From Bacteroidota bacterium (GTDB lineage Bacteria; Bacteroidota; Bacteroidia; B-17B0; Aurantibacillaceae): a DNA stretch of 64,000 bases. The notes under the pieces are model-generated. The model was not told the DNA's origin. It did not search any database and saw nothing but the letters and a program-made list of their open reading frames with translations. This document shows positions 2,561 to 55,355 of this stretch, in pieces. The stretch's first letter is position 1. Each line of letters opens with the position of its first letter. Position numbers and translations under genes: made by a program. The stretch is from assembly GCA_030684395.1 (NCBI GenBank), contig JAUXTT010000025.1, forward strand, positions 62,001-126,000, read 5' to 3'.

Positions 2561-2576
2561 GGAATTAATACTTGAG

Positions 2577-2594: not shown

Positions 2595-2600
2595 TAATAA

Positions 2601-2633
2601 TTAAAAATGCAATCATTAAGGTTGCATTTTTAA
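2601..2633 (+). terminator. sucD terminator hairpin
   Basis: A perfect 12-bp stem, TTAAAAATGCAA paired with TTGCATTTTTAA around a 9-base loop. Its right arm supplies the T-run. Confidence 0.75.
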
Positions 2634-2700
2634 TTTATAGAAATAAAAAACTGAGTTGACCCCGTATGAAAGGACAGCCGAAACCATAAAAACAAACCCT

Positions 2701-2940: not shown

Positions 2941-2948
2941 TTGCTCTT

Positions 2949-2978
2949 CAGGTGGTTTCGACTTCGCTCAACCACCTG
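2949..2978. terminator. Hairpin after the cysteine-rich lipoprotein gene
   Basis: CAGGTGGTT and AACCACCTG form a perfect 9-bp stem around a 12-base loop, eight bases after the stop codon. The TTTCGACTTCGCTCAA core is a common intergenic repeat in Bacteroidota. There is no long T-run, so termination is likely but not certain. Confidence 0.5.
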
Positions 2979-3003
2979 ACATTATCCTTCGATTAAAGCT
3001 ATC

Positions 3004-3029
3004 GGTGACTGAACAAGGTCGAAGTCACC
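3004..3029 (-). terminator. Hairpin spanning the glycosyltransferase stop codon
   Basis: GGTGACT and AGTCACC form a 7-bp stem that includes the TGA stop of the minus-strand glycosyltransferase. With the convergent hairpin at 2949-2978 it separates the two genes. It is also part of the dispersed TCGACCTTGTTCAG-type repeat. Confidence 0.4.
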
Positions 3030-4266: not shown

Positions 4267-4273
4267 GAAAATA

Positions 4274-4351
4274 AAAAAGGCTGTCTCCCTCATCCCTTGG
4301 ATACTTCGATAAACTCAGTACTCAGGATAAACAGGACAAGACAGCCTTTTT
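4274..4351 (-). terminator. Ferritin terminator with repeat in its loop
   Basis: AGACAGCCTTTTT and AAAAAGGCTGTCT form a perfect 13-bp stem with a 52-base loop. Read on the minus strand it follows the ferritin stop by 14 bases and ends in a T-run. The loop carries a TCCTGAGTACTGAGTTTATCGAAG-type intergenic repeat, apparently inserted into an older, tighter hairpin. Confidence 0.7.
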
Positions 4352-4365
4352 CTATAATATTTTAT

Positions 4366-4899
4366 TTATTTCCCGCCTTCGTTGGCTCCGCCTGCTTTTC
4401 CTGCTCCGGCTGTAGCACTTGCAGCCATATCTCTATCGAAGAAATAAAGAGCTGCTTTTTCCCCGCCCATAAACTTTAGTTTATCAACACTGGTTCTGGC
4501 TAAGGCTTCTTCTTCAATTTGCTCAGTTACATACCACTGCAAAAAATTATGTGTAGAATAATCTTTTTCTTTCAAACAAAGATCTACCAATTCATTAATG
4601 GATTGAGACACTTTCTCTTCGTGGTGTAAAATAGTTTCGAAAACCTCTGTTACTGATTTGTATTTTACAGGAGGAGCTTTAAGTGCCGGCACAATTCCAT
4701 GCCCTCCACGCTCATTCACAAATTTTAATAATTTGGTTGAATGCATACGTTCTTCATCAGAATGTCCGTACAAGAATGTAGCAACTCCATTTAAACCCTG
4801 AACTTCAGCCCAGGATGCCATAGACAAATAGTAATTTGAACTCGCAGCTTCCAGTTCAATTTGTTTATTTAATGCTGCTTCAATTTTTTTAGATAACAT
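4366..4899 (-). CDS. ftnA: Ferritin (FtnA-type, non-heme)
   Basis: A 177-residue iron-storage ferritin. The diiron ferroxidase ligands align one for one with bacterial FtnA: E17, E50 and H53 (in DEERMH), E94, and Q127/E130 in TEQIEEE. The helical body ends near residue 157. A flexible Gly/Ala tail of about 20 residues follows, longer than in E. coli FtnA. It stores iron in a cytoplasmic 24-mer and limits Fenton chemistry. The gene is monocistronic, with its own terminator. Confidence 0.95.
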   Translation of the reverse strand: MLSKKIEAALNKQIELEAASSNYYLSMASWAEVQGLNGVATFLYGHSDEERMHSTKLLKFVNERGGHGIVPALKAPPVKYKSVTEVFETILHHEEKVSQSINELVDLCLKEKDYSTHNFLQWYVTEQIEEEALARTSVDKLKFMGGEKAALYFFDRDMAASATAGAGKAGGANEGGK

Positions 4900-5000
4900 A
4901 ATGTTTATTTTAGATGTTAGATTTTCGATATCTGATTTAAAGATGAATTTAGAAATAATTTCTCAATCCACATCAGAAATCTAAGATCAAAAATTATAAA

Positions 5001-6902: not shown

Positions 6903-6918
6903 GTTTGGTAACTATACG

Positions 6919-6926
6919 CAAAGGTA
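6919..6926 (-). promoter_or_regulatory. Candidate -7 promoter box for purF
   Basis: The minus strand reads TACCTTTG, a full match to TAnnTTTG, 17 bases before the ATG. A TTG is present upstream, but only 12 bases away, so the -33 element is unclear. Confidence 0.5.
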
Positions 6927-7029
6927 CTACTATTACCTCAATTGATGATGCCCGTTTCATAAAAAATGGAAAATTTGCAGACTGATTTTTTTAAATAATT
7001 CAGGTATATTTATACCAAATTCGATTCAA

Positions 7030-9072: not shown

Positions 9073-9082
9073 AAAACAAAAC

Positions 9083-10798
9083 ATGAAAAGTACATTTCTA
9101 TTTATACTCTCCGTTTGTTTATTTTTTTCCTGCAAGCCCGGCAAACAAAAAGCTGATCTTATTATCCACAATGCTGTAGTTTACACGCTCGATTCTGACT
9201 TTAGCATTACTGATGCTATTGCAATAAAAGATGATAAAATACTTGCGACCGGAAATTTTGAAGAACTGCTGAGTTTATACGATGCAACTGAAAAAACAGA
9301 TGTTCACGGCAAGTTTATTTACCCCGGTTTTATTGACTCTCATTGTCATTTTTATGGTTACGGAATGGGCTTGCAGGAGATTAATCTTGTGGGAACAAAA
9401 TCATTTAAAGAAGTAATTGAACGAATAGTAGAATTCACTAATGTTCACGAAAAAGAAGAATGGATAATTGGACGTGGCTGGGATCAGAACGACTGGGAAG
9501 TAAAAGAATATCCTGACAACAAACTACTTGACAGCTTATTCCCAAATACGCCGGTACTAATTACCCGCATAGATGGGCATGCCGCATTAGCAAATAGTAC
9601 TGCTTTAAAAAGAGCCGGAATAAACAAAAAGACTTTTGTAAATGGCGGAGAATTATTGTTTATAAAACAAACAGAAACAAGTAAAAACCTTTCGGTAAGC
9701 AAAAGCGAATCAAAAAAAGACGCATCCTTATCAGGTATATTAATCGATAACGCTGTAGACCTTGTTACAAAAGTGATACCTCAACGACCTGAAGAAAAAA
9801 TCAAGAAAGCCTTAATGGATGCACAGGCAAATTGTTTTGCGGTAGGTTTAACAACAGTTGATGATGCGGGTCTTTTAAAATCTCAGATCGACATAATAGA
9901 TCAAATGCAAAAACAGGATAAGTTAAAGATCCGTGTGTATGCAATGCTTAGTGATAGCTCCGTGAATTACGATCATTATTTAAAGAATGCCCCCCCGTCC
10001 GAACGGGTAGCCTGGGGGAAATACAAGACCGATTTCCTGAATGTTTGTTCTTTTAAGTTTTATGGTGATGGCGCTTTAGGTTCAAGAGGTGCATGCATGA
10101 AAAAAGATTATGCAGACAAAATAGCTTGGAGAGGTTTTCTCTTGTATCCGATAGAACATTACACGGAAAAAGGTGAGTTACTAAAAGCACATGGGTTTCA
10201 GATGAACAGTCATAGTATAGGAGATTCTTCCTTAAAAGTGTTTGTAGATTTATATGGTAAAGAATCCGTTAAGAATTTGCGCTGGCGCATTGAACATTGT
10301 CAGATTGTAAGTAGTGATGAGCTACCCAAATTTAAAGAGTATGGAATTATTCCCTCTGTTCAACCAACACATGCAACAAGCGATATGTATTGGGCTGAAA
10401 ACCGCATTGGGAAAGAACGATTAAAAACCGCTTATGCCTTTAAAGATCTTCTGTCAGCCGCCGGACTTATTGCTTTAGGAACCGACTTCCCTGTAGAAGA
10501 CATCAGTCCCTTCAAAACATTTTACGCCGCAGTTTTCAGAAAGGATGCGAATGGTTTTCCTAAAGGAGGATTTCAAATAGAAAATGCATTAAGTCGTGAA
10601 GAGGCCATTAAAGGAATGACTATTTGGGGTGCATATGCCAATTTTGAAGAAAAAGAAAAAGGGAGTTTGGAAAAAGGAAAGTTTGCAGACTTAATAATTC
10701 TGGATACCGATCTTTTAAAATGTGAAGAGGAAAAAGTATTAAAAACAAAAGTAATTGCTACATATATTGGCGGAAAAATTGTTTATAGTTATAAATAA
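9083..10798 (+). CDS. Lipoprotein amidohydrolase (YtcJ-like, amidohydrolase 3)
   Basis: A 571-residue product from ATG 9083; an in-frame ATG 27 bases earlier lies inside the preceding gene and would spoil the export signal. Residues 1-17 form a lipoprotein signal with lipobox LFFSC. The enzyme belongs to the metal-dependent amidohydrolases. The metal motif DSHCHF lies near residue 85, SHSIGD and RIEHCQIV supply later ligands, and GTDFPVED carries the conserved Asp. YtcJ-type enzymes deacylate or hydrolyse varied substrates, and the substrate here is unknown. It is likely anchored in the periplasm or outer membrane. Confidence 0.88.
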   Translation: MKSTFLFILSVCLFFSCKPGKQKADLIIHNAVVYTLDSDFSITDAIAIKDDKILATGNFEELLSLYDATEKTDVHGKFIYPGFIDSHCHFYGYGMGLQEINLVGTKSFKEVIERIVEFTNVHEKEEWIIGRGWDQNDWEVKEYPDNKLLDSLFPNTPVLITRIDGHAALANSTALKRAGINKKTFVNGGELLFIKQTETSKNLSVSKSESKKDASLSGILIDNAVDLVTKVIPQRPEEKIKKALMDAQANCFAVGLTTVDDAGLLKSQIDIIDQMQKQDKLKIRVYAMLSDSSVNYDHYLKNAPPSERVAWGKYKTDFLNVCSFKFYGDGALGSRGACMKKDYADKIAWRGFLLYPIEHYTEKGELLKAHGFQMNSHSIGDSSLKVFVDLYGKESVKNLRWRIEHCQIVSSDELPKFKEYGIIPSVQPTHATSDMYWAENRIGKERLKTAYAFKDLLSAAGLIALGTDFPVEDISPFKTFYAAVFRKDANGFPKGGFQIENALSREEAIKGMTIWGAYANFEEKEKGSLEKGKFADLIILDTDLLKCEEEKVLKTKVIATYIGGKIVYSYK

Positions 10799-10806
10799 AA
10801 AAAGAA

Positions 10807-10829
10807 GAGGTTGTTTTTTTAGCAACCTC
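10807..10829. terminator. Bidirectional terminator between convergent genes
   Basis: GAGGTTG and CAACCTC form the stem. A-rich flank is on the left and T-rich flank on the right (ACTATTTTTTTT follows), so it can serve both the amidohydrolase (+) and the type IX cargo gene (-). Confidence 0.65.
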
Positions 10830-10844
10830 CTCTAACTATTTTTT

Positions 10845-13800
10845 TTACTTACTTAATAAAACCCTCACCACCACTTGTTGATCATTCAATACAACCTTTA
10901 TAAAATAAAGGCCATTTTCCTGATCGATAAAATTTATTGAATAAGAGTCGAGGTCTGGTTTAATTTCGTTTACCACTTTTCCTAATACATCACAAACTAT
11001 GATCTTATCAGCAACACTACCTGTTTTTACTATAGCGGTACCTGAAGTTGGATTTGGAAAAACACTTACTTTGAGTGAATTTAGATTCTCCCCTAGTTCA
11101 TCTTCCTTAACTGCATTTTCAGCTATTCTTTCGGAAGATGGTGTAGTTACAGAACAAGCTGGTCCGTAAGGTCCCCAAACTCCGTTTGAATAGGCCCTGA
11201 TACGTACATTATATATTTTTCCGTAGGTAATTTCAGGAACTGTATATAAATAAAAGTTGGATGATGCATTCCCCCTCAGTTTTGTGAACACATCCGCGGT
11301 AAGCACATCTGTGAACTCATATTCGTAATTGCTCACATTTACGACCGGATCAAGATATAATTCTGTGCCTAAACTGCTTACTGTTATTCCGCAAAAATCA
11401 GATCGCAATTGAGTTGGCGGAATACCTAATGTTGTTAATGTGCAACTAGGCCCGTATGGACCCCACACACCTCCAAAAAATGCTCTCACTCTTACATTAT
11501 ATGTTTTGTCGTAATGTACCAGCGGCTCCCAATACAAATAAAAATTATTATAACCGCTACCTCTCAATGTTGTGAACACATTACTTGTGGAAACATCAGT
11601 AAATTCATATTCGTAGTCAGAAACACTATAGAGATAATCGATAAACACTTGTGTACCCATATCAATAGAAGCTCCGCAGAAAGCATCTGATAATTTGGTT
11701 ATTGGGAATTCAGGAGTTGTTATCAAGCAAGGTTGTCCAAAAGAACTCCAAACTCCATTTGAAAATGCCCTTACCCTTACACTGTATGTTTTATCATATG
11801 TAATTTCAGGGATCCAATACAAATAAAGATTATTGGAATTATTGCCTCTAAGTTTCGTAAACACATCATTAGTCAATATATCTGTAAACTCATATTCATA
11901 ATTGGTGACATTTATGATGGGATCGCAAAATAATTGAGTTCCCATACTACTTAATGTTACTCCACAAAAATCAGATCGCAATTGAGTTTGCGGGAAAGGA
12001 GGAGTTTGCAATATGCACACCGAACCAAAGGTTCCCCATTCTCCATTAACATAAGGGCGTACCTGAATTTCAAGGGTTTTATCATAGGTAAATTGTGGAA
12101 CCATATAAAAATAGAAATAGTTTAAAGCACCTACCCTGATAAAAGTATCAATATCCCCGGTTGAAACATCAGTAAAATGATACTCATATTGTGTTGCATC
12201 AGGAACCGGATCACAATAAATTCTTGTGGATAAATCGTCTAATTGCACTCCACAAAATTCATCTGTTAGTTTAGTTGTTTCAGGGCCATGAGGAGGAACT
12301 GTTATTGAAACCGTTGCAGTATTTGAACAGCCATTTTCATCTGTTCCGGTAACAGTATATGTTTCACTTGATGTCAATATCACTGTTACGGGCTTTCCTA
12401 CAAGATCACCCGGAGACCATGAATATGAAACTGCACCTGAAGCACTGAGTGTAGAAAATGTTCCCGCATCCATTGTAGAAGGATCTGCACTTGCAGCTAC
12501 ATTTGGCAAACTATTCACTACAACTAATACTGCAGTACTACCTGTACAACCATTCTCGTCAGTTGCAGTTACAGTGTATGTAGTCGTTTCGGAAGGATAA
12601 ACAACAACATTTGAACCGGACATATCACCTGGCATCCAATGATAACTTAACAAACCTGTACCTCCGTCTGCTATTGCAAACAATGATGCTGCATTGCCCA
12701 AACAAACAGAAGCATTACCTTCAGCGGAAACATTAATAAGACCCGGCTGCGAAATGGAAACTGTTTGAGTATGAATACATCTGTTGGCATCTTTTATGGT
12801 ACAGGTATAAATTCCAACACTCAAACCTGTTGCTGTAGAACCTGTTCCTCCAATCGGCAACCATTTATAAGTGTATGGTGGTGTGCCCCCACTTACATTA
12901 ACTGTTGCAGAGCCATCACTACCTTCATAACAACTCACCGGTATATCAGATACTGTTGACTCCATCTCTGATGGTTGACCAATAGTTACCGTTTGATTTA
13001 AAACACATCCTGCTTTATCTGTAATAGTACAAGTGTAAGATCCTGCTGCCAATCCTGTAGCTAAAGCGCTCCACCCGCCATAAGGTGCCCAGGAGTATGA
13101 ATACCCGCCGGCTCCTCCATTTGGAATCACTAAAGCTGATCCGTTTGATGCCCCATTACATCTTGCATCACGTGTAAAAACCAATGCGCTTAAATTTACA
13201 AGTGCACTATACGAGTGAATAACCAAAGGAGATGTTCCGTTATTCGGACTGTTAGTATTTACACCATGCCAAATTCCATTATGATCTGTAGAGTATCCGG
13301 GGCAAACAATATTTCCTGTAATTACGCTTCGCTCTTCAATGCGTTTCACTCCTCCGTTATCATCGCCATCATTTATCGCCCTATAATAGCCGTCACTCTC
13401 ACCATTCGGAATAATGGCATTCCAACCACCGGAAGAGTTTGTATAACCCGGAATTATATTTGGAATTACCAAACCAATTCCTTCAATCGGAGAAATGTAT
13501 AATGGACGACCTGATCCATGTTCGTTATCGTACAATAGTGCCAAATCCAATGGAGCCCCGTCCGAATGATCTTCCTGAAGGAATGATCCTTTATTCGCTC
13601 CATGATGTGTACTAAAAGTCAAAACCTTAATCCCCAGATTTAAAGCCTTCCTTGAAACAACCGACCCTGTTGAATTGCTACCGATAACAATAACCGGATA
13701 AATAGTTTTACTGGCACTAAATCTGGAATTTCCATCATGAATAAGACCAAACCATCCGGTGTACTGACCACTTCCATTTGTTGTAAAAGTTGCATACCCA

Positions 13801-23365: not shown

Positions 23366-24502
23366 TCACAGCAAGCTATACATTTTACCGGGAAGTGACT
23401 TAACCACATTACTAAATTCCAGTTGTAATAAAGTGGAGGCAACATCACTCATTGTCAATCCTGTTTTATAACATACTTCATCTATATGAACGCCTGAGTT
23501 TACACTAAATAAACTTACTATTTTTTTCTCCTTCGCTGATAAATCAGGCAACAATTGAATTTGTTTATTTCTATTTTCATTAGGCTTAAGGTTTTCGTCT
23601 TGCCAATTCATCACGTACAACAGATCGGCTGCATTTTCTATTAGCACTGCTTTATTACGTTTTATAAATGCATTGCAACCTGCAGAAAATTCATCACCCG
23701 TTCTTCCCGGAAAAGCAAAGACATCTTTATTATAAGAATTTGCAATTTCTGCTGTAATTAAAGATCCACCTTTTAGTTTGGTTTCAACCACTACAAGTGC
23801 ATCGCATATGCCCGCAACTATTCGATTTCGTTTAGGAAAATTTTCCCTATCTGGATTAGTATCACTAATAAAGTCAGTTAAAACCCCTCCCTGCTTTTCC
23901 ATCTTTCTGGCTATAGTACTATGAACCGCAGGATAGATCCTGTCTAAACCATGGGCAACTACACCTATGGTATCAAGCCCTTTATCCAATGCTGTTTTAT
24001 GCGCCAACACATCTATGCCATATGCGAGCCCGCTTACAATCAAAATTCCGGAATTACTTAATTCATCAATAAATTGCTCGGTAGCATGAATGCCATACGA
24101 ACTCGGCGTTCTGGTTCCTACCACAGAAACTACTTTAGCCGTATTTAAATCAGCATTCCCTTTATAATACAAAAGTGCAGGGCTATCATTTGAGAATTTT
24201 AATCGGGAAGGGTAATTTCCATCCGTAAAAAAAATAGCTTCGATTTTGTTTTCTTCAATAAATTGTATTTCTTGCTCCGAACGCTTTAATATCTCAACGT
24301 TTCTTAATTCAGCTAATATATTTTCCGCAGTTTTATTTGCAATACCCGGGATTTTTATAAGCGCTTTCTTTTTTTCTTTAAAAACCGCCTCTGCACTTCC
24401 ACAATAAGTAACAAGGTTTTTTGCAATAACATCTCCTACATCAGGCAACAAGGTTAGTGCAATTTTATAGAGTAGATCCTTATCTGTAATGCTCTTATAC
24501 AT
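23366..24502 (-). CDS. dprA: DNA-processing protein DprA
   Basis: DprA loads RecA on incoming single-stranded DNA during natural transformation. The 378-residue length is typical. An N-terminal helix-hairpin-helix (IPGIANKTAENIL) precedes the Rossmann-like fold with VVGTRTPSSYG, SGLAYGIDVLAHK and FPKRNRIVAG. The C-terminal winged helix (HIDEVCYKTGLTMSDV) is present. A TAATTTTG box lies eight bases upstream. comEC at 53128 supplies another part of the DNA-uptake pathway in this window. Confidence 0.96.
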   Translation of the reverse strand: MYKSITDKDLLYKIALTLLPDVGDVIAKNLVTYCGSAEAVFKEKKKALIKIPGIANKTAENILAELRNVEILKRSEQEIQFIEENKIEAIFFTDGNYPSRLKFSNDSPALLYYKGNADLNTAKVVSVVGTRTPSSYGIHATEQFIDELSNSGILIVSGLAYGIDVLAHKTALDKGLDTIGVVAHGLDRIYPAVHSTIARKMEKQGGVLTDFISDTNPDRENFPKRNRIVAGICDALVVVETKLKGGSLITAEIANSYNKDVFAFPGRTGDEFSAGCNAFIKRNKAVLIENAADLLYVMNWQDENLKPNENRNKQIQLLPDLSAKEKKIVSLFSVNSGVHIDEVCYKTGLTMSDVASTLLQLEFSNVVKSLPGKMYSLL

Positions 24503-24509
24503 ATAAAAA

Positions 24510-24517
24510 CAAAATTA
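24510..24517 (-). promoter_or_regulatory. Candidate -7 box for dprA
   Basis: The minus strand reads TAATTTTG, a full TAnnTTTG match, eight bases before the ATG. Such spacing implies a nearly leaderless transcript. Confidence 0.4.
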
Positions 24518-24570
24518 CTCCTTTTTATAGTAAATTGCTGCTATACTTTGTAGCATTTTATAATTACAAT

Positions 24571-27500
24571 TTACTGAGCCAGGCTAAATCTTAAACTGAA
24601 ACCTGCATTTGTATTAGCAGTTGGGAAAGAAGTAGAAACAACAGGTTTATTAATGATCTTATCAAAGTACAAACGGAGGTTGATATTTTGTGAAAGCGCA
24701 TAGTCAACCGATGTCTTTAATGTTATAATATTTTGCCCTTGTGAAGGAACACTCAAGCCATCAATTACACGACGTTGCGTAGTAACATTATTTCTCAACG
24801 AAAGATCTACTTTACAATTCAAGTCGCTTTCCAATGGTTTGCCTTTTATCTTGATCTTATTCAATTTTAATTTAGGATAACGATAACCTGCTCCGATTAT
24901 ATATTCTTGCCCCCGTGTTTCGGTGATCTGCGGTATGTTTGCATTTAAACTAACCGTACGGTCTTTACGCATTTCGAAATTGGCCGTAAGCGAACCCTTT
25001 GATTTAGCATCTTTTTTATCCGTTTTTTTGCCTTTTTTCTCAGCAAAAACAATATCAATTTTTACTAAAGGAGAAAAACTTTCCTGAATAGTAACCGTGT
25101 TAATTAAATACTTAGATACCAAATTTGAATTTGGATTTGAAGGATCAACCCTGCCCGGTGAATACTGCGTTTTTTCAAAGTCCTGTCCGGTTGGCACTGT
25201 AAACAAAATGTTATTACTAAACGAACCAACATTGTAAGTTGATTTGTAACTGTGCCGTAAAGTAATGGTTTTAAAATGCCTTTTCATGAACTTGAATTTA
25301 CTCAATCCATCATAAGTCAAAGTCCAGTTTGGAAGTGGCATTTTTGGGAAAGCGCTTTGGTTTGCACCAGAACCTTTGCCTGTGTATGCTGCCACAAACG
25401 AATTCAGAATTACATCCTGCTGATTTCTTGAATAACCATCATAGCCTTCTGTTGTTTGTGCTTTGGATGAAAACGGGTTCTCATCAGATAAGCGTTTCGC
25501 ATAGGTTTCTCGGTAACTGAGAAAATTATCAAACACGCTGTTCGAATAAGTAACCTTGTCATCTTTTGCAAAAGCCGACTTTATAGTAATAGTTGAAATG
25601 CTAAAATTACCTGTTTGAGTAAATGTATTAGTTGTGTACCTTCCTTCGGTAGAATTCCAGCCTACATATTGTGAACTATTATAACCTTCTGATTTAGTTC
25701 CGGTAAGATCAATCCTAAAATCCTTAAAAGGTTCAAGTTTAGCCGTAAAATTAATTTGCTTGCTTTTTGTTTGAGCAAAAGGACTGTTTAAATTATCTCT
25801 CCTGATAAACAAACTATCTTTCATTGCATTAGCCATTACATTTTGCTGGCCTCCTGAAACAAATCGAATGCCCGGATGGAAATTACCATTGGGGTTCATC
25901 CCCAATATACGTGTAGAATCAGTATAACCCGGCAATGTAGTTCCGTTATTTTCCGTGTAAGTAAACTGCGCTTGTTTCAATGTCATAATTAATCGTGCAA
26001 TGTGCTCAAATAACTTAATGTCCTTTTGCTTTTTTGTAGTGTCATTAGCACCTGATGATGATTTCGATTTGTCTTTATTCTTCTTAGACGCCCCTGTGTT
26101 TACCTTTTTAAAATATGGTATCTTATTATAAAGTGTTACCATATTAAACTGGGTATTTAACGACTTTGTGTTACCATTCATAATGGTATTACCCATACTA
26201 TCTGCTGCAAAAGGCCTGCGTGTAAACTGATAATTGGTTTTGTAACTTGCATTTGCCGTAACCCAATCAAATATTGGTATTTTATTAATTGGAACAGCAT
26301 AAGTTAAGTTAGCTGAATGCCGGTAACCAATATTAATACCTCCGGCCAATATATTTTTCTTTATAACATCTTTTTCATCCTGAGTATCTACTTCACCAAT
26401 TATTTGTGACTCCGGCTCGAGTACACGGGCATCGTTACCTGCCGTGAAATCAAACTTCAATGCTTTGGTAAAATCCCATTTAAAATCGTAAGTACGATTC
26501 ATAATAAATGTTTTGTTGTAACGTGATGGTAAAGAAAAAGCGTCAGAAGAAATATTTCTGCTCTTGTACTCATTGTAGTTACGTGTAATATCGGTATTAA
26601 ACCCTAAGCGCGAAGGCATAGGGGTAAAATTAAAATCCTTAATTAAAGCAAACCATTTGTTATTAATCCATTTTGCTTTTGACTTTGCAAATGGCTTAAT
26701 GTTTTTTGGATTTGCAGTGAAGCCATAAGTAAGTGCTGCGCGATAATTTTTAGTAAGATTTAACTCCTGCGTTATGTTACGCTTAAACTGTTCGCTGAAA
26801 GCATAAGTAACTGAGAAATTTTCTATATCCCAAAAGTGGCTCTTTGTTTTTGTTGCACTCTTCTGCTTACTGATATTGGTAAAATTAAATCCACGCCGTC
26901 TTGTATAATCCTGTGCCCGGTTCCTGATCACTGTTAACTGATCATCGGTTACATCTTTATAGTTTCTGATATCAGTCATCAATACATCAGGGTTAGAAGG
27001 GTCAAACTGAGGAGTAGCAATAACTTCACCTCTGTTCAAATAAACAGGCAAATTAATTTTCCAATCAGCAGGGAAGAATTTCCCCAATTGTAAAGTTGTG
27101 CTTGCATCATATTGAATATTTGTTTCACGGCTACGCTCGCTTACTTTTTTCTCAATGCTTCCAAAGAAAGGGGTCATGTATGAACCTGACAAAGCAAGCT
27201 GCCCGAAGTCAGCCAACTTAGCTGTAACACGCGCGTTAGCCGCCCAACCTCCTTTTTGTATAAAGTCGGTTAACCTTAATTCATTTATCCAAACTTCAAC
27301 GCATTTAGCTTCATTTCCAATGTCTTTTGGATTGCGTATACCTACCATTATAGTTCGCAAATCCGATATGGTTGGATTACCAACCAATTTAATAGTTTTA
27401 CCTCCATCAATTCCTTCTGTAACAGTTTCAATACTGCCTGCTTCGCGTTTAAATTTAAGATTGATCATTTGTTCAAAATCGATCTCTACTTTATTTGCTG

Positions 27501-30500
27501 TTGGCCATACAGCTTCGCGGTCACCATCACTGTTTCCGTCGTAATTACCTGCAGCAGTTAATTTTAAAGGAACAATGTACTCATAATAGTTACCAACGAA
27601 ATCGGTACCGAAACGAACAAACATTTGCATTTCGCCATCCTGCAATGGATTCTCTCCTAATTTTTCGGCGTGTACAAACATTTGCATTTTTTTGTACGAA
27701 CGTACGTCGTTTGATACGTTTTTATATGCTGCTTTTGCATAACCATCTGCCAAACCACATGTTCTTAATACCAAAGCCTGCTCATTTAATAAAACCAAAT
27801 TAGTCGTTTGAACGTTTTGCTGTTGATTAATTCCGGGAGGAATTACATAGTTAACAGGTGTTTTTGTTCCATTTTCTTGCACGTTAACCGCTGAAATATC
27901 AAAAGTTGCTCCATCCTCGGGTCCGCCAATATAATCTCCCGGCTGGGCTCCAACACCATCATATCTTCTCCAGTCGCTTCTAACTAATTCCATGCGGGCC
28001 ATACGACATACTACCGGCGCGCTAAATCCCTGAAGAATAGTACGCATAAAACGAATAGAGTTAAAACCTTCTATAGATCCTACTTTTTGTTCGTAGTTAG
28101 CAACCGGCACTTTAAATAAATACCAATTCACGCTTTTCGCATTACCACTTGCATCCGTAAAATTAGAAGTGTAAACATTGGTAATATAATTGTTTCCCAC
28201 ATTAGCGGGCGTAATATCCTGAGGTGTTATCTTAATTCTGTACTGGTAATAGGCTTCGGTTTCACTGAGGGTATTATCTTTATTTACATCTTCCGTGTTA
28301 GGAATAGTAGTTGCAGTAGTTGGGTACTTGTCATTATTTAAAGCTTCGTATTGAGCAACAGTTGGAGAGTTTCCTTCCATATTGTTAAACCATTTATAGC
28401 GATATAATGTATTTGCTTCAGCATTATTATCAAAATCATCTCCCCTGTAAAAATGATAATTATCTCCTGATGGATCAGCATTAGCCGCATCAAAAGTGCT
28501 TCCTGATAGTGAACTTAAATAAGCAGTAAAATAAGTTCTTTCATCGCTGTTCTTTACTCCATCATAACCAACATCCTGGTTTTCCCTAATAGATTCATCA
28601 ATATCAAATGCCGGAGTTATAATTGGTAAGCTTGGCATAAAACCCCATGGTGTTCCTACTACTTTTTCCGGGTCAGCATAAGAACCGGATTTTGGAATTC
28701 CATTTTCAAAAGCCATTCTTCCATCTTTCAAAATATCTTCGGATACGTTACCTATATTAATAATCATTTCCCCATTGGCGGGAGGTGTATAGCCCGGAAA
28801 AGCACCAGAGTAATCCGTATTAAATGGGTCCATCATCCAAAACTGGATAAACTCAATGTTGGCAGTTTGAAAATCGGGGTTTTCCATACGGCGCATGATG
28901 CCACCCCAACGACTCTCCGGATTATTTAATCGAATTCCATTACTTGTGTTTGAATTTGCGAAATCAATTCCGCTCGAAAAAGAGGTTGGATTTACATCAA
29001 AATTATAAGGTCCCCTTTCATTCGGATAAAACGCCAGATCCAACACAGGAAGTAAAACCGGTTGCCCGTTTGGCGGTTGTTTGTTAGGGAATAATTCAGT
29101 TTCAACAACTGAACGCATAAAATTATTTGATTGAATTGCTTTGGTAATGTTACCGGGTTTGATATTACCATCTAAATAAAACACAGATTGATCAACCGTG
29201 TACCATGCAAATTTTGCTCTGTTATAGCCTGAAAAACTACTGTCTAAATTTGCTTCAGGGAAATCATCCGTATTACCTTGTGGTATGCTTGCTAAACTCC
29301 ACGCACCTGCACTTCGCAAATCAATTAAAGAAACACTTCCTTCAAAATCATCTAAATAAGAGTTCCCGCCTTTATCCCCTGTTGTATTAATGGCCTTTGA
29401 GTGGCCTGCAATTAATTGTGCAAACTCTCCTGATGTTTGAATAGAGGATTTTTCTTTAGTATTGATTAATGGAATTTTATCAACCAAACGAGTTAACCAC
29501 GGTGCATCTGCACGGTGACTAAAATCGGCTCCCCACATAATATTAGAAACGGGCTCATCTCCAAAATTTACTTTTTGAGTAAGAGGTCTTTCAGTTAAGC
29601 GTAAAAAGGTTCCTCCAAAACTGAAGTCTTTATTTACTTTATAATCCAATCGGGTACCTATCAAACTTTTTTGCTGAATATTAAACATCGAATTACTTTC
29701 AGAAGAAACCTTAATTGGTTGCCCTGAATTCATAATACTCTCATTAATTATTTTTACTCTTCCCAAAGTATAATCTACTGTATAATCTACATTCTCAGTT
29801 AGCGGAACACCTCCCGCTGTAACCTTCACTGAGCCTTGCGGGACGTTCATTGCATTTAGAGAAATTTCAGAACTACTGGATGATTTGTATTGCCCTTTAA
29901 TTTTGTAAACATTCTTTTTAGTTTGCTGTTGAGCAATAACTTTGGTTGAGTCATAAAGTTCTTGAAAGATATAATCATTTGTTTCGTTGGATGAACCGAT
30001 AAGGCTCTTTAAGTCATTTCCGAAAGGTTCTACCAACGGCATATAAACTCTTCCATTGGATGCTATAATTGTTGTTCCTTCTACAAAATCAAAATATCCA
30101 TCGGGAGATTTATCTCCATTCACATTTATCTGATCTAAACCAAACACTTGTAACAAAGGCGTACTCGCAACAGGCGACACATTGATATAAGGAAGGTCAA
30201 CTCCTTTGGTCATTCTGAATACCTCAAATTTAAAATCCTGTGGATTGATCTGATAACCACCAATAGAGTAAACGTTTTTCATCATCAGATCCCACATTGC
30301 TACCTTTGTGTTTAGAACAGTACTCTTCAACAATTTCAAATATAAAGGTTGGTCACCTGTAGGAAACTGATCCGAAAATTCACCCACCTGATAAGTTTGT
30401 CCACCCGAAGTATATTGATAGGCAACACACAATACCTCATCATAATTCAAGGCCTGATTTAACGAGATAAACCCTAATCTTTTATTAAAAATATACTCTG

Positions 30501-31983
30501 TTGGTTTTAATTTGCGGGCACGGTTTACAACATCAAAATCACGACCTTGCTCCATAAATTGGTTATCGAAATTACAAGTATTTTGAAAAAGCGTTGATTC
30601 CTTCATTTTATTGGCAATCGACGAGAAATCCCTGTCCTTGATGATACCATTTACTTCGTTTGTAAGAATATTATACAAACTGTTTGATCCATTTCTTGGC
30701 AAAGCTCCCGAACTGTCAATGATTGTATAAGGTGCCGGCACACATCCCGAATTGGTTAAATTACCAATGATCTTCGATTGATCTTCTCCTAAATCAGCGA
30801 AACCTGCTATATTACGTACCTCGTCTTGTTGGTTACTTCTATTGGTTACCCATACTTCAATTTTGGTAATAACAACATTTGAACTTACCAATGGTATAGT
30901 TTTCATAGAAGCATTATAATTATCTCTGAAGTACTGCCCTAAGAAATAGTGGCGGTTTGCCTCGTAATTATCAGCAGTAACAACATAATTTGTACTTTGT
31001 GAACCTCCCTGAAGTGTAACCTCTGTTTTCTTACCGCGCTCCTGTGATAATACTGTTGTTGCAGTAAGCCTTCCAAACTGCATTTTCGTTTTAACACCAA
31101 ACAAACTCTGACTTCCTGGAATCAATGAAGTAGTTAAAGGCAATGTAACGTTACCTGCTTCAATAGTTTTTAAGATCTCATCTTCCAATCCATTGTACTC
31201 GATCTTCATTTGATTTTCGAAATCGAAAGAAGCTTCTGTATTATAGTTTGTGGTTAGTTTCAATTTCTCCCCGATCTTTCCAACAAGGTTCAACTGAACC
31301 TTCATGTTAAAATCAAAATTGGTTATCTTACGCTGTTTTACGGGAATAGCAGGGTTTCCATTTTTATTGGTAACCAAACCAAAAGATAATTCCGCAGAGC
31401 CATTCGGCCTAATGTCAACTGTGTTACCACCAAAGATCCTATCGAATAACTCACCACCAACATTGAGTGTAGGAATTAATTTGTTTGGATTTGTTTGATT
31501 GGTAGCATCATCAGCTTTGATCCTTGACTTAAAATATGTTTTAACCTGCTTTCTAAATAAATAATCCTGATACTCTTCTTCCGACATGTAAATAGGCGGG
31601 CGATAATTGGTATTACCCATTTTTTGCTCGAATAGAAATTGATTTTTTACAGTATCATTGGCACCTCTGTTTTTAATTTCATAGGTGGTAGTATTCTTTA
31701 TATTACCCGGGCTATTTAACTCTAATGGATGTTGATTCTGATAAATGTATTCGTCATATCCTGTTTGATGAATCGGATAATGAAGGTCCGCATTTGTGAT
31801 CGGGGTATCAGTTTCAGGAGTGTCTGTTAATGCAATATTGTTTCCATTAAATCCTTTTACACGATATTTTGGCAATGGAGTATTACTATCGGCATGCGAC
31901 TTGGTAATTACCGCCAGCATTGATAAAGACAATGAACCAACAAGTGTATATTTAATGAGTGCCTTCAATATTTTATCTTCCAA
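24571..31983 (-). CDS. sprA: SprA, type IX secretion outer-membrane translocon
   Basis: At 2470 residues this is the size of SprA, the giant 36-strand barrel that passes type IX cargo across the outer membrane. A hydrophobic export signal covers residues 6-31 (ends ITKSHADS). The body is made of alternating beta strands with frequent aromatic residues, and the protein ends in GFSLRFSLAQ with a C-terminal aromatic as in outer-membrane barrels. ruvA and malic enzyme lie upstream on the same strand, a common Bacteroidota order. The start used here is TTG at 31983. An inverted repeat arm ends only five bases upstream, so the native start or leader may have been altered. Confidence 0.95.
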   Translation of the reverse strand: MEDKILKALIKYTLVGSLSLSMLAVITKSHADSNTPLPKYRVKGFNGNNIALTDTPETDTPITNADLHYPIHQTGYDEYIYQNQHPLELNSPGNIKNTTTYEIKNRGANDTVKNQFLFEQKMGNTNYRPPIYMSEEEYQDYLFRKQVKTYFKSRIKADDATNQTNPNKLIPTLNVGGELFDRIFGGNTVDIRPNGSAELSFGLVTNKNGNPAIPVKQRKITNFDFNMKVQLNLVGKIGEKLKLTTNYNTEASFDFENQMKIEYNGLEDEILKTIEAGNVTLPLTTSLIPGSQSLFGVKTKMQFGRLTATTVLSQERGKKTEVTLQGGSQSTNYVVTADNYEANRHYFLGQYFRDNYNASMKTIPLVSSNVVITKIEVWVTNRSNQQDEVRNIAGFADLGEDQSKIIGNLTNSGCVPAPYTIIDSSGALPRNGSNSLYNILTNEVNGIIKDRDFSSIANKMKESTLFQNTCNFDNQFMEQGRDFDVVNRARKLKPTEYIFNKRLGFISLNQALNYDEVLCVAYQYTSGGQTYQVGEFSDQFPTGDQPLYLKLLKSTVLNTKVAMWDLMMKNVYSIGGYQINPQDFKFEVFRMTKGVDLPYINVSPVASTPLLQVFGLDQINVNGDKSPDGYFDFVEGTTIIASNGRVYMPLVEPFGNDLKSLIGSSNETNDYIFQELYDSTKVIAQQQTKKNVYKIKGQYKSSSSSEISLNAMNVPQGSVKVTAGGVPLTENVDYTVDYTLGRVKIINESIMNSGQPIKVSSESNSMFNIQQKSLIGTRLDYKVNKDFSFGGTFLRLTERPLTQKVNFGDEPVSNIMWGADFSHRADAPWLTRLVDKIPLINTKEKSSIQTSGEFAQLIAGHSKAINTTGDKGGNSYLDDFEGSVSLIDLRSAGAWSLASIPQGNTDDFPEANLDSSFSGYNRAKFAWYTVDQSVFYLDGNIKPGNITKAIQSNNFMRSVVETELFPNKQPPNGQPVLLPVLDLAFYPNERGPYNFDVNPTSFSSGIDFANSNTSNGIRLNNPESRWGGIMRRMENPDFQTANIEFIQFWMMDPFNTDYSGAFPGYTPPANGEMIINIGNVSEDILKDGRMAFENGIPKSGSYADPEKVVGTPWGFMPSLPIITPAFDIDESIRENQDVGYDGVKNSDERTYFTAYLSSLSGSTFDAANADPSGDNYHFYRGDDFDNNAEANTLYRYKWFNNMEGNSPTVAQYEALNNDKYPTTATTIPNTEDVNKDNTLSETEAYYQYRIKITPQDITPANVGNNYITNVYTSNFTDASGNAKSVNWYLFKVPVANYEQKVGSIEGFNSIRFMRTILQGFSAPVVCRMARMELVRSDWRRYDGVGAQPGDYIGGPEDGATFDISAVNVQENGTKTPVNYVIPPGINQQQNVQTTNLVLLNEQALVLRTCGLADGYAKAAYKNVSNDVRSYKKMQMFVHAEKLGENPLQDGEMQMFVRFGTDFVGNYYEYIVPLKLTAAGNYDGNSDGDREAVWPTANKVEIDFEQMINLKFKREAGSIETVTEGIDGGKTIKLVGNPTISDLRTIMVGIRNPKDIGNEAKCVEVWINELRLTDFIQKGGWAANARVTAKLADFGQLALSGSYMTPFFGSIEKKVSERSRETNIQYDASTTLQLGKFFPADWKINLPVYLNRGEVIATPQFDPSNPDVLMTDIRNYKDVTDDQLTVIRNRAQDYTRRRGFNFTNISKQKSATKTKSHFWDIENFSVTYAFSEQFKRNITQELNLTKNYRAALTYGFTANPKNIKPFAKSKAKWINNKWFALIKDFNFTPMPSRLGFNTDITRNYNEYKSRNISSDAFSLPSRYNKTFIMNRTYDFKWDFTKALKFDFTAGNDARVLEPESQIIGEVDTQDEKDVIKKNILAGGINIGYRHSANLTYAVPINKIPIFDWVTANASYKTNYQFTRRPFAADSMGNTIMNGNTKSLNTQFNMVTLYNKIPYFKKVNTGASKKNKDKSKSSSGANDTTKKQKDIKLFEHIARLIMTLKQAQFTYTENNGTTLPGYTDSTRILGMNPNGNFHPGIRFVSGGQQNVMANAMKDSLFIRRDNLNSPFAQTKSKQINFTAKLEPFKDFRIDLTGTKSEGYNSSQYVGWNSTEGRYTTNTFTQTGNFSISTITIKSAFAKDDKVTYSNSVFDNFLSYRETYAKRLSDENPFSSKAQTTEGYDGYSRNQQDVILNSFVAAYTGKGSGANQSAFPKMPLPNWTLTYDGLSKFKFMKRHFKTITLRHSYKSTYNVGSFSNNILFTVPTGQDFEKTQYSPGRVDPSNPNSNLVSKYLINTVTIQESFSPLVKIDIVFAEKKGKKTDKKDAKSKGSLTANFEMRKDRTVSLNANIPQITETRGQEYIIGAGYRYPKLKLNKIKIKGKPLESDLNCKVDLSLRNNVTTQRRVIDGLSVPSQGQNIITLKTSVDYALSQNINLRLYFDKIINKPVVSTSFPTANTNAGFSLRFSLAQ

Positions 31984-31988
31984 TCTTT

Positions 31989-32030
31989 AAACACAGAGTA
32001 CACTGAGTTAACAGAGTTGCACTGAGTTTT
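31989..32030. repeat. Inverted repeat arm, sprA side of the GxxExxY cassette
   Basis: The arm begins AAACACAGAGTACACTGAG and continues as about four roughly 10-base units of C-A-C-[AT]-GAG type. It pairs in inverted orientation with the arm at 32478-32517. An AT-rich stretch and a short degenerate region follow, up to the gene at 32089. Confidence 0.75.
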
Positions 32031-32088
32031 ATTTTTTTTATTTTTTGAGAATTCAGAGTAAGTGAGTTTGCCTAAAGGCAATCTTTGA

Positions 32089-32522
32089 TCACACCGCATT
32101 CAAATCTCCATTTATTCTTCTATAAATCCCTTCTTTTAAAAGTGGGACATTAAAATTTATTAATAAACCAAGCTTTTTATCTGCCAATTTTAAATATGTT
32201 ACTAACTGAGCTTCATGAACAGGTAAAACTTGTTCAACTGATTTAAACTCAATAATAACTTTATCATTCACAAGAGTATCTATGATAAAATCCTTATTCA
32301 TTTTTTCCCCTTAAAAACAACAGGCAATACAACTTGCCTTTTTACATTTAATCCCTCCTTCTTCATTACTTCAACTGCACAAATTTCATATACCGATTCC
32401 ATTAAACCAGGTCCAAGCTCTTTATGAACTTCAATACAACATCCAATGATTTTCTGCGACAAGGCATTATAATCATCCTCTGTGTAACTCATTCTACTCT
32501 GCGAACTCAGTGTTGACATCAT
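32089..32522 (-). pseudogene. GxxExxY protein gene split by a one-base frameshift
   Basis: Two frames together make one GxxExxY-family protein of about 140 residues. The first (32298-32522) carries IIGCCIEVHKELGPGL then MESVYE. The second (32089-32301) carries DFIIDTLVNDKVIIEFKSV and HEAQLVTYLKL. They meet in a run of six A at 32301-32306. One extra A would join them cleanly as KGKK-MNKDF. The family is widespread in Bacteroidota; its function is unknown, and a nuclease-like fold has been suggested for it. The first 11 or so codons are built from repeat-arm sequence. The gene is broken, mis-sequenced or frameshifted during translation. Confidence 0.8.
32478..32517. repeat. Inverted repeat arm, ruvA side of the GxxExxY cassette
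   Basis: The arm reads CTCTGTGTAACTC, then CTCTGCGAACTCAGTGTTGAC. Its reverse complement resembles the 31989-32030 arm unit by unit. It lies inside the GxxExxY reading frame and ends 10 bases from the ruvA stop codon. Confidence 0.75.
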
Positions 32523-32527
32523 GTCTC

Positions 32528-33121
32528 CTAAACGTTCTTTAATGCTGCTTTAACTAATTGTTCTACATTATCGCTCGACACTCCTTGTTGCTTAATAGAT
32601 TTCTCTATTGCTTTTTCTGCTACTTGTTTGTTGAACCCTAACATTACCAGTGCCATTAACGCCTCCTCTTTGCTTTTATTGTACGATGGAGTCAAAATGG
32701 TTGAAATACCTCCTTCGTGTTTTCCCAATTTTCCTTTCAAATCAACAACAATACGTTGAGCAGTTTTTTCACCAATTCCTTTGATACTTTTTAGCATAGT
32801 TACATTGGCTGTATTAATAGCTCCGATTATTTCCATTGGCTCCAAAGAAGACAACATTAACAATGCACTTCCCCCACCTACTCCTGAAACAGAGATCAGC
32901 TTTCTGAACAATTCTCTTTCTTCATAATCGGAAAAACCATAATAACGCGGATTATCGTCACGCACATATACCTGTTCAACAAACAACTTAAAGTTTTTGT
33001 GATCACCAATTTTTGAATAAGTATTCAAAGATATATTTAGTCCGTAACCAATACCACCGGTTTCTAACACCGCATGAGCAGGACCTAATTCCACGATTTT
33101 TCCTTCAATATAACTAATCAT
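32528..33121 (-). CDS. ruvA: Holliday junction branch migration protein RuvA
   Basis: RuvA binds Holliday junctions as a tetramer and recruits the RuvB motor. The 197-residue length is typical. The N-terminal OB domain starts MISYIEGKIVELGPAHAVLE. Two helix-hairpin-helix motifs follow (VSGVGGGSALLML and GIGEKTAQRIVVDLKGK). The C-terminal RuvB-binding domain ends LVKAALKNV. It follows malic enzyme by eight bases, so the pair is probably cotranscribed. Confidence 0.97.
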   Translation of the reverse strand: MISYIEGKIVELGPAHAVLETGGIGYGLNISLNTYSKIGDHKNFKLFVEQVYVRDDNPRYYGFSDYEERELFRKLISVSGVGGGSALLMLSSLEPMEIIGAINTANVTMLKSIKGIGEKTAQRIVVDLKGKLGKHEGGISTILTPSYNKSKEEALMALVMLGFNKQVAEKAIEKSIKQQGVSSDNVEQLVKAALKNV

Positions 33122-33129
33122 TGCCGCTT

Positions 33130-35400
33130 CTATCGTTTGGTTTGCGCGTCAATAACGGCAATAGTTATCATATTAACAATTTCTCTAACTGAGCTTCCTA
33201 ACTGAAGCACATGCATTGGCTTTTTCAATCCCATTAAAACAGGTCCTATTGCTTCTGCTCCTCCTAATTCTTGCATCAATTTGTAAGTAATGTTACCTGA
33301 TGCCAGATTGGGGAATATCAAAGTATTTACATTTTTATCCACTAGTGCTGAAAATGCAAATTGCTCTTTCAATAAACTATTATTTACAGCAAAGTTTGCT
33401 TGTAAATCACCATCTACAATAAGCCCGGGATAATCTCTGTGTAAAATGCTAACTGCTTTTGAAACTGTATCAGGAATTTCGCCTCTTGCTGATCCAAAAT
33501 TAGAATACGAAAGCATGGCAATACGGGGAATAAAATTAAATTGTTTTACTGTTTTTGCAGTTAAAGCCGCAATCTCCACCAATTGCTCGGCGGTAGGCTC
33601 CACATTCATAGTACAATCAGCAAAAAAGAACGGACCTTTTTTTGTCATCATTATATACAAACCTGCAACAAGTGAATTTCCTTCCTGAACACCAATACAC
33701 TGCAAAGCAGGTACAATGGGTTGAGAATATTTTCTGGTAAGACCTGAGATCATAGCATCAGCATCACCGGTTTCAACCATCATTGCGCCGTAATAATTTC
33801 TCTCACGCATTAGTTTTCGTGCATCATATTGTGTTAATCCCTTGCGCTGACGTTTTTTCCAAAGTAAATCGCCATAGATATGGCGTTTATCTTCTTCTTC
33901 GTTGCTGTACGGATCAATAACCGGAACATCCTGCAATTCCAAATGATGTTCTTTAATCAATGCTTCAATTTTTTCCTTGTTCCCTAATAAAATAGGTTTT
34001 GCAATTCCATCATCTTTTGCAACCTGAGCTGCCTTTAATATTTTGTAAGTATCTGCTTCCGCAAAAACAACACGTTTTGGTGCAGACTTAGCTTTTGTCG
34101 CCAGTGAACGTACTAATTTATTGTCTTTACCCAAACGGTTTTCTAATTCCAAACGATATGCATCCCAATCGGTAATGATGTGCTTAGCAACTCCGGAATC
34201 AATTGCGGCTTTTGCAACAGCCGGAGAAACTGTCCAGATAAGGCGGTTATCAATTGGTTTTGGAATAATATATTCAGGACCAAATGAAAGATTTTTTGAG
34301 TTGTAAGCTACATTTACATAATCAGGAACAGGTTCTTTTGCAAGGTTTGCGATTGCATAAACCGCGGCAAGTTTCATAGCTTCGTTGATCTGTGTTGCGC
34401 GAACATCTAATGCGCCACGGAAAATAAATGGGAATCCCAATACATTATTTACCTGATTAGGATGATCGCTGCGGCCTGTAGCAACTATAATATCAGGGCG
34501 GGCAGCAATTGCCTCTTCATAAGAAATTTCGGGAGTTGGATTAGCTAAAGCGAATACAATACAATCTTTCGCCATGCTTTTGATCATATCCTGATTAAGA
34601 ACGTTTCCTTTGGAAAGCCCCAAAAACACATCAGCTCCTTTCATTGCTTCTGCCAATGATTTTACATCTGTTCTGGAAGAAGCAAAGAATTTTTTATTCT
34701 CATCAAGATCTGTTCTATCAATAGTGATGGGGCCTTTACTATCGCACATCAAAATATTTTCCTTCTTCACTCCAACACCAATATGTAATTTGGCACAAGA
34801 AATAGCCGAAGCTCCTGCTCCATTGATAACCACTTTAACCTCACCCATTTTTTTACCCGAAACCTCTACTGCGTTTAGTAAGCCTGCCGCAGAAATAATA
34901 GCGGTTCCGTGCTGGTCATCATGCATCAAAGGAATATTCAATTCTTCTTTTAATCGTCGTTCAATTTCAAAACATTCAGGTGCTTTGATATCTTCCAGAT
35001 TGATGCCGCCAAATGTTGGGGCAATTGCTTTAACTGTTTGAACAAAAACGTCAATATCCTTTGTGTCTACTTCAATATCAAAAACATCGATATCAGCGTA
35101 GATCTTAAACAACAACCCTTTTCCTTCCATTACCGGCTTTGAGGCCAATGGGCCAATATCCCCTAAGCCTAAAACGGCAGTTCCATTAGAAATAACTGCC
35201 ACCAAATTACCTTTAGCCGTGTATTTGTACACATCTTCAGGATTGTCTGCTATTTCTAAACATGGATCAGCTACTCCCGGCGAATAAGCCATTGTTAAAT
35301 CCCGTTGGGTACTATAGGGTTTTGTAGGTACCACTTCAATTTTCCCTGGTTTTCCCTGAGAGTGGTAATCTAATGCGTCTTGTTTTCTGTAATTGGCCAT
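33130..35400 (-). CDS. maeB: NADP-dependent malic enzyme with phosphotransacetylase-like domain
   Basis: A 756-residue two-domain malic enzyme that decarboxylates malate to pyruvate with NADP. The N-terminal malic domain (1-430) has [12 protein letters not shown], the acid motif [10 protein letters not shown] and the NAD-binding [10 protein letters not shown]. The C-terminal domain (430-756) resembles phosphate acetyltransferase and acts in regulation, since acetyl-CoA inhibition is known for MaeB. The starting Met at 35400 fits the family N-terminus [10 protein letters not shown]. Placement next to ruvA and sprA is typical of the phylum. Confidence 0.96.
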
Positions 35401-35674
35401 AGTTCTAAAAAATACGAACTGCGAAAATAAGCATTAAAGACGAATAAAGCACGTGATGTCAAAAGTGTAACAAACTGATATTCAGTACATAAATCCTTTT
35501 AACTCAATTGTTTCTTGTGAAAATCAGTAAGAATAATACGCTACCGAGTTTAAGTAAAAAAATCCGAAGGCTTCCCTTAATTACAAAAGGTTTTAGGTCT
35601 TTTTTAAATCAAAACGATTATTCATGCTAAAAAAGGTAATTTCGTTCTAAGTAAAAACTATCCCGGCACACAAA

Positions 35675-55182: not shown

Positions 55183-55197
55183 GCAAGCAAAAATTTT

Positions 55198-55340
55198 AAC
55201 ACAGAGATACAGAGGAGCACGGAGCAACACAGAGATTTGATTTTGATGCTTCGGAATTTATATTAAAAAAAACGCTTTGTGCTGAAATAAAATTAAAAAA
55301 AGACTCTGTGAAACTCAGTTGCCTTTGTGCCTCTGTGTTG
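55198..55340. repeat. Paired inverted repeat, CACAGAG family, nearly empty
   Basis: Left arm 55198-55236 starts AACACAGAGATACAGAGGAG. Right arm 55304-55340 ends GTGCCTCTGTGTTG. They match in inverted orientation and enclose only about 67 bases of AT-rich DNA. The arms are of the same family as those around the GxxExxY gene at 32 kb. The element fills the space from 16 bases after the comEC stop to 15 bases before the next start. A minus-strand frame through it (reading FNTEAQRQ) is a by-product. Confidence 0.8.
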
Positions 55341-55355
55341 AAACAAATAAATGAA

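Follow-up and report, generated by a model that had tools for sequence, protein, structure and literature searches.

What is a small GxxExxY gene enclosed by inverted repeats doing in the gap between two ordinary genes? The locus lies in the 64,000-nucleotide stretch of Bacteroidota DNA analysed here (the window), between ruvA and sprA, and a sequence-only reading of it had proposed that the repeats (arms) and the gene move or are copied together. The observation is real, and the phenomenon is larger than that reading described. We favour, with a probability of about 0.55, a system of the REPIN/RAYT kind built around an unrelated nuclease, in which the gene and its cognate arms would be the autonomous element and arm pairs without a gene its dependents, bound and copied through the action of the protein.

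An insertion between ruvA and sprA

Relative to the congener G001, the window carries an insert of ~550 bp that, as had been claimed, fills the interval between the ruvA and sprA ORFs (31984-32527, 544 bp; Table 1). By blastn, window positions 23609-31975 correspond to 1921-10279 of the congener locus L312 and positions 32535-35487 to 10282-13231, with 2 bp between the two blocks in G001. The ends of the insert are accurate to ~10 bp only, because the final ruvA codons lie in the unaligned stretch. RuvA was searched for in the window genome and 20 relatives and matched in all; 19 relatives gave the locus (G020 gave none), and in all of these 19, two of them congeners, the junction between ruvA and the next gene could be read and is free of the element. 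The sequence-only reading had pointed to this comparison, and the relatives turned out to lack the element rather than to share it. Visual inspection of the ruvA-sprA site showed no target-site duplication, the relatives being too diverged for proof at the level of single bases. Outside the block 23609-35487, a single short blastn match connects the window with the 60 kb of G001 that were fetched (L310-L312). In a distant relative (L027), the ruvA-sprA spacer contains a run of 7-nt units (TCTCTAT type) resembling one arm of the S23P class described below.

The arms, 37 bp each and inverted, are indeed made of the CACAGAG/CACTGAG type of unit noticed before, which we read as 7-nt units: CACTGAG-TT-CGCAGAG ... 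GAGTT-A-CACAGAG in the upstream arm (gene strand, 32514-32478) and CACAGAG-TA-CACTGAG ... CAGAG-TTG-CACTGAG in the downstream arm (+ strand). The arms therefore stand as first described; the single small gene between them does not. It consists of two overlapping ORFs in different frames, one matching the first and the other the second half of the family model, and since they meet at a run of six A residues, it is probably either a gene broken by a -1 frameshift or the product of a homopolymer assembly error, the latter being possible at such a run. The first ORF starts just outside the upstream arm and its first codons pass through it. A programmed frameshift was considered and rejected: in the seven loci with an in-frame stop in the core, the stops are scattered (residues 1, 22, 29, 44, 44, 56 and 87), which makes ordinary decay the likelier cause. 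At E 0.001, the window ORFs of the gene matched PF13366/TIGR04256 only and no known transposase family.

Table 1. Features of the ruvA-sprA insert, its neighbours and a gene-less arm pair (window coordinates).
Feature	Position	Strand	Basis
Insert between sprA and ruvA (559 bp)	31976..32534	.	blastn bounds against congener G001
Upstream arm, units inward on gene strand	32478..32514	-	Sequence, unit scan, inverted repeat I1
Downstream arm, inverted copy	31990..32026	+	Sequence, unit scan, inverted repeat I1
GxxExxY (PDDEXK_3), N-terminal part, 74 aa	32298..32522	-	PF13366 E 3e-15, TIGR04256 E 2e-15
GxxExxY, C-terminal part, 70 aa, -1 frame, with D and ExK motifs	32089..32301	-	PF13366 E 4e-18, TIGR04256 E 1e-19
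Six-A run at the frame break (T-run on + strand)	32301..32306	-	Sequence and ORF list
ruvA, upstream neighbour on gene strand	32528..33121	-	TIGR00084 E 1e-55
sprA/sov, downstream neighbour on gene strand	24571..31983	-	TIGR04189 E 0; start codon per ORF list
Gene-less inverted arm pair of the window arm type (REPIN/MITE-like)	55194..55343	.	Sequence, pair list

Arms around GxxExxY genes in the genome and beyond

The window genome has six GxxExxY loci (from seven matches, two of which are the halves of the window gene), all of them within arms that are inverted by eye and lie ~390-450 nt apart around the gene. The units differ by locus: CACAGAG in the window and at L001, where an open GxxExxY gene has the window's arm type, CACAAAG at L002, CACGGAG/CACAAAG at L003, CATATAAGG at L004 and ACGAATA at L005. 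A profile search with the L001 protein at a cutoff of E 1 gave only PF13366.

GxxExxY matches were found in 45 of the 61 genomes of the same family. The family set comprises 94 loci (5 from the own genome, 29 from the search and 60 fetched), leaving out the window gene and the lower-scoring listed matches. We have scored the double unit CRYNNAK-N1..3-CRYNNAK in the inward and in the opposite orientation. Inward double units flank 47 of the 94 loci on both sides (2 in the opposite orientation) and 67 on at least one side (14 opposite); the remaining 27 have no arm on either side by this strict pattern, some of them showing arms of another spelling by eye. Beyond the family, at least 582 relatives were confirmed in named genomes, of which the best 80 were taken and 78 had enough flanking sequence: 48 have inward units on both sides (10 opposite) and 70 on any side (24 opposite), the control being higher here because some of the arms are hairpins themselves (by eye). 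The expectation that GxxExxY genes mostly carry arms is thus borne out in both sets. By their record titles, GxxExxY genes occur in at least 10 phyla, the best 80 including Bacteroidetes, Ignavibacteria, Verrucomicrobiales, Acidobacteria, Planctomycetes, Chloroflexi, Cyanobacteria, several Proteobacteria, Cloacimonadota, Armatimonadetes, Neomarinimicrobiota, Nitrospinota and others. Five loci on viral contigs were left out of the counts.

In a best-word test per locus, the inverted arrangement was better in 64 of the 94 loci and worse in 20. The flanks of the same 94 loci repeat at lags of 9 and 10 nt (z 8.0 and 7.6, against mononucleotide shuffles) and also at 4 (z 6.4) and 3 (z 4.5), the distant flanks having mainly periods that are multiples of three. 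The elements mostly lie in the same direction as their neighbours: among the 143 of 174 loci that could be scored with mechanical ORFs, the upstream gene is on the same strand in 133 and both neighbours are in 117. We found no description of arms around GxxExxY genes in the literature searched, which did not extend to preprints; the available part of PMC8934634 reports a reverse transcriptase gene adjoining a GxxExxY gene and says nothing on arms, and in that of PMC10910872 the 23S rRNA IVP is named in a legend only.

Arm type and protein relatedness

Arms were compared across sides and between loci, an upstream arm always being set against a downstream arm from elsewhere, which keeps common surroundings from raising the similarity. 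Arm similarity grows with protein identity (Mantel r 0.34, p 0.001, 165 of the 174 loci; r 0.11, also p 0.001, in an opposite-strand control), p-values here and below being optimistic because the genomes and loci are related. Membership of the same genome contributes nothing (coefficient -0.1; 80 same-genome pairs, 3661 others, 87 loci). When the best arm match was sought in other genomes, it ranked among the top 10% by protein identity for 71% of the loci, compared with 55% in the opposite-strand control. On a protein tree of the 113 loci with clear units, position 7 of the unit (G/T, 108 loci) requires 4 changes, against a mean of 19.5 and a minimum of 15 in 200 shuffles, and position 2 (A/G, 104 loci) requires 20, against a mean of 33.9 and a minimum of 25. 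Arm type thus tracks the protein rather than the genome.

L097 and L050 (88% protein identity), for example, have alike arms and L112 and L113 (70%) very alike ones, and in both pairs the surrounding genes are unrelated, which indicates that gene and arms travel as a unit; other close pairs are plain orthologs at one site. The proposal that arms and gene move or are copied together is thereby supported, the movement itself being what we infer from these placements. L112 and L004 are related CATATAAGG elements from two genera, with the right-hand neighbour gene in common and the left-hand one not.

Arm pairs without a gene

The claim that the same family of arms occurs elsewhere in the window without a gene holds for the pair listed in Table 1, and the genome has many more. 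The double unit CACDRAGDNCAYDRAG occurs 107 times in it and the reversed control pattern 4 times, which cannot be due to chance. In 70 partly overlapping stretches around arms of the own genome (30 + 40), a unit scan found 44 with a pair no more than 160 nt apart, one (L268) with a pair 302 nt apart and single arms in the rest. A stricter list, drawn from the window and the 70 stretches, has 30 distinct gene-less pairs of ~65-190 bp, one of them in the window, adjoining assorted genes. That these are shrunken gene-bearing copies was rejected, a tblastn search of the 70 stretches with 87 GxxExxY proteins as queries having been negative at E 0.01.

The numbers of units appear to vary with the GxxExxY content of the 61 genomes. 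After subtraction, CAC-type units number ~20 in the genomes with a CAC-type GxxExxY gene (10 genomes) and ~1 in those with other types only (35; p 0.001), a comparison among typed loci, some GxxExxY loci being untyped. The corresponding figures for CGC.GAT units are ~15 with the matching type (18 genomes) and 6 with other types (27; p 0.01), and at most 2 in the 16 genomes without GxxExxY. The median density of CGC.GAT double units, in counts that include the genes' own arms, is 3.7 per Mb in the 45 genomes with GxxExxY and 0.24 in the 16 without (p 5e-6). This difference is also found among genomes at least 90% complete (p 3e-4) and within genus g6 (13 vs 4, p 0.006), and has the same direction in g2 and g9, two genera in which 2 and 3 genomes lack the gene (p 0.1). 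For CAC.RAG alone, presence versus absence gives p 0.054 over the 61 genomes and 0.018 at 90% completeness or more. The number of GxxExxY genes predicts the unit total beyond genome size and S23P number (partial correlation 0.53, p 2e-4), the S23P number giving 0.15 (p 0.12); the former is 0.35 (p 0.003) after subtracting 2 hits per gene and 0.17 (p 0.10) after subtracting 4, and with 4 per gene subtracted in every genome, presence versus absence still has p 0.03.

Gene-less pairs are, in short, abundant and apparently more so in genomes with GxxExxY genes, but there are clear exceptions and the dependence is not strict. The window genome has 90 CGC.GAT double units and arms of this type at none of its six GxxExxY loci; these units are possibly relics of a lost gene. 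CAC.RAG units are present without any GxxExxY match in G004 (22 units, genome 96% complete), G002 (15, 66%) and G046 (9, 82%). The congener G001 has 113 CGC.GAT double units together with a GxxExxY gene of that arm type.

A pair of inverted arms may be maintained for its sequence or for the stem that it forms, and the variable columns between the 7-mers bear on this choice. In 13 type-A pairs of the genome (5 of the 30 pairs, nested or irregular ones, having been left out, and two more in a follow-up) these columns match between the arms less often than in shuffled combinations (z -3.9); in 12 type-B pairs, 14 CGC.GAT pairs and 6 CAC.RAG pairs of other genomes, z is -0.1, +1.2 and -0.3. The 7-mers match between the arms and the variable columns match no better than those of another element in all four sets, which argues for sequence reading over a selected stem. 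The exception is the pool of 44 gene-bearing loci from several clades, in which the linkers do match better (z 3.3). Conserved stem mismatches, seen in type A and in none of the type-B, CGC.GAT and CAC.RAG sets, were not built on.

Some pairs have unusual contents. The type-A arms at L268 254-624 (G000:C23) enclose a 61-aa ORF that is not GxxExxY and has no match in NCBIfam or Pfam; it is perhaps another cargo, antitoxin-like by eye. At L282 583-762, a gene-less pair of the CATATAAGG type lies within a mosaic of CACAAAG/CACAGAG arms, as if inserted there, and at L002 1852-1951 and L277 727-917 the palindrome CCCGATAGCTATCGGG, or a close form of it, lies within an arm or pair as an insertion of another repeat family.

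S23P genes in arms of another class

The window genome also has five S23P genes (the '23S intervening sequence' protein), sitting between ordinary genes, four of them within arms that are inverted by eye. The flanks of 34 S23P loci repeat at lags of 7, 14, 21 and 28 nt (z 18.8, 12.5, 7.5 and 5.4), and none of the 34 has the CRYNNAK double unit on both sides, one having it on either side. The best-word test is flat (inverted better in 14, worse in 14), so the case for S23P arms depends on the period and on an alignment test, in which 20 of the 34 loci reach p <=0.05 and 7 do in the direct control. The arms of S23P genes form a separate class, in which the period is 7 nt. As S23P, a non-enzyme, is similarly arranged, catalysis may not be the point of such systems.

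The GxxExxY protein

GxxExxY proteins are ~130-140 aa long. An alignment of 57 loci has G28, G30, Y36, D73, E83, K85, N114 and F115 invariant and E33, Q97 and Y101 nearly so. The pattern of D, ExK and QxxxY is that of RecB/Cas4-type nucleases. The modelled structure (pLDDT 93.9) has as its top PDB match 4ic1 (Foldseek E 6e-4), the structure of SSO0001, a Cas4; the superposition gives Z 8.9, modest by the tool's own note, with rmsd 4.1 over 102 aligned residues, and PADLOC returned a weak Cas4 profile match (E 0.012). Cas4 proteins have Fe-S cluster cysteines, whereas no cysteine is found among the invariant or nearly invariant columns of the 57 sequences. Genes that share a site are under purifying selection, frequently with dS >0.5 between them: in 15 pairs, 14 with a finite value, dN/dS is <=0.12 in 12 and 0.21 and 0.56 in the others. 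The fold and the motifs identify GxxExxY as a predicted minimal PD-(D/E)XK nuclease of the Cas4/RecB kind with conserved catalytic residues. A nuclease of this fold is not known to join DNA by itself.

Comparison with known systems

REPIN/RAYT systems consist of inverted doublets with a short, variable and foldable spacer and a gene tied to the repeats; repeats are more numerous where the gene is present, and the gene is kept vertically and not seen on plasmids, according to the available sections of PMC8049555. The GxxExxY system likewise has inverted doublets with a short variable spacer in its 30 gene-less pairs, same-site orthologs under purifying selection, and few plasmid matches (7 of 72,556 plasmid records, with one query). 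The differences are that the protein is a putative nuclease (PF13366/TIGR04256) and not a Y1 HUH tyrosine transposase, that each arm strings together about four 7-nt units, spelled differently from one protein clade to the next, and that the arms enclose the gene. The element would thus work like REPIN/RAYT without the enzyme that defines it.

With the 23S intervening sequences carrying S23P (PF05635) it shares the short insert, inverted ends, one small gene and tandem repeats beside the gene. In the case described in the part available of PMC4990558, tandem heptamers (GACAGAT) precede the S23p gene, the ends of the insert are inverted and RNase III cuts it in vitro. The resemblance fails in place and in protein: the insert is between ruvA and sprA and not in 23S rRNA, it has GxxExxY instead of S23P, and its unit period is 9-10 against 7. 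The TAACTGA heptamer repeats of Beggiatoaceae, Cyanobacteria and some Bacteroidetes are tandem 7-nt units that lie between genes close to start codons, with a patchy distribution and a possible horizontal spread by an unknown mover; a term search of the main text of PMC4679880 found no mention of an S23P or nuclease gene. As described there, they resemble S23P arms, but are direct and not inverted sets of one fixed heptamer. Finally, inverted ends, patchy insertions and gene-less forms are also found in MITEs and insertion sequences; here no known transposase family was matched and no target duplication was seen by eye.

How the element may work

The window insert would belong to a widely distributed kind of small mobile repeat system, in which a GxxExxY gene is enclosed by two inverted arms. 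About four 7-nt units, of the general form CRYNNAK and spaced 8-11 nt, make up an arm, and the protein would recognise the units of its own arms. It would act on these in cis and, like a RAYT transposase on its REPINs, also in trans on pairs that lack a gene; cutting would provoke copying by host repair, and the copies would be joined at new sites. Gene-bearing copies would settle in short intergenic gaps, mostly along the direction of the upstream gene, from which they are probably read through. Since its enzyme gene is broken, the window copy would now itself be a dependent. If the arms are recognition sites, GxxExxY, a family label without a function, gains one, short repeats dispersed over many genomes can be assigned to it, and naturally occurring combinations of protein and address become available for studying how specificity changes in a small nuclease. 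The REPIN/RAYT way of life would then also have arisen with a second, unrelated enzyme, and the S23P intervening sequences could be placed within a general type. More tentatively, GxxExxY proteins would be the engines of mobile repeats that as a class have had no name, the minimal Cas4-like nuclease and its private 7-nt address, present several times in each arm, co-evolving as lock and key and the address having been rewritten many times; S23P would be a sister class having an address of 7-nt period and a non-catalytic binder, both copying DNA without a classical transposase.

The arms might instead function in RNA, as transcript stems for end protection, termination or RNase III excision in the manner of 23S intervening sequences, with mobility rare or past. 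Co-directional placement between genes (both neighbours in 117 of 143) fits this, as do the S23p insert cut by RNase III (PMC4990558, in its available part) and the folding of four gene-less pairs, each of which, as single-stranded DNA, folds better than all 200 of its shuffles. We nevertheless consider it rather unlikely, because the variable columns in the four sets, unlike the linkers of the pooled gene-bearing loci, fit sequence recognition more than pairing and a plain stem would not need a unit sequence that follows the protein. A purely regulatory role, in which the protein would bind its arms for no purpose but control of its own operon and arms without a gene would serve as additional operators, is very unlikely: the long purifying selection at one site and repeat arrays adjoining the start codon would agree with such a role, but the arms are inverted around the gene and not upstream alone, gene-less pairs lie beside assorted genes, the distribution is patchy and the conserved residues are those of a nuclease.

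A passenger role for the protein, the arms being mobilised by an enzyme encoded elsewhere and GxxExxY (and S23P) being cargo kept between them, would account for two unrelated proteins in similarly built arms, for the common gene-less pairs, for genomes with such units and no GxxExxY match and for the other ORF at L268. It seems improbable to us all the same, since the two cargo families differ in arm class (CRYNNAK at a 9-10 nt period against a 7-nt period, on both sides in 47/94 against 0/34 loci) and the arms follow the protein. A system driven by GxxExxY itself remains our preferred reading. The RAYT-type genes of the genome were considered as the mover and rejected, none of its four Y1_Tnp matches (two strong, two weak) having a CRYNRAG double unit in the fetched stretch (0/4). 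Y1_Tnp (RAYT-like) genes at L306, L307 and L309 are flanked, by eye, by palindromic repeats of another sequence.
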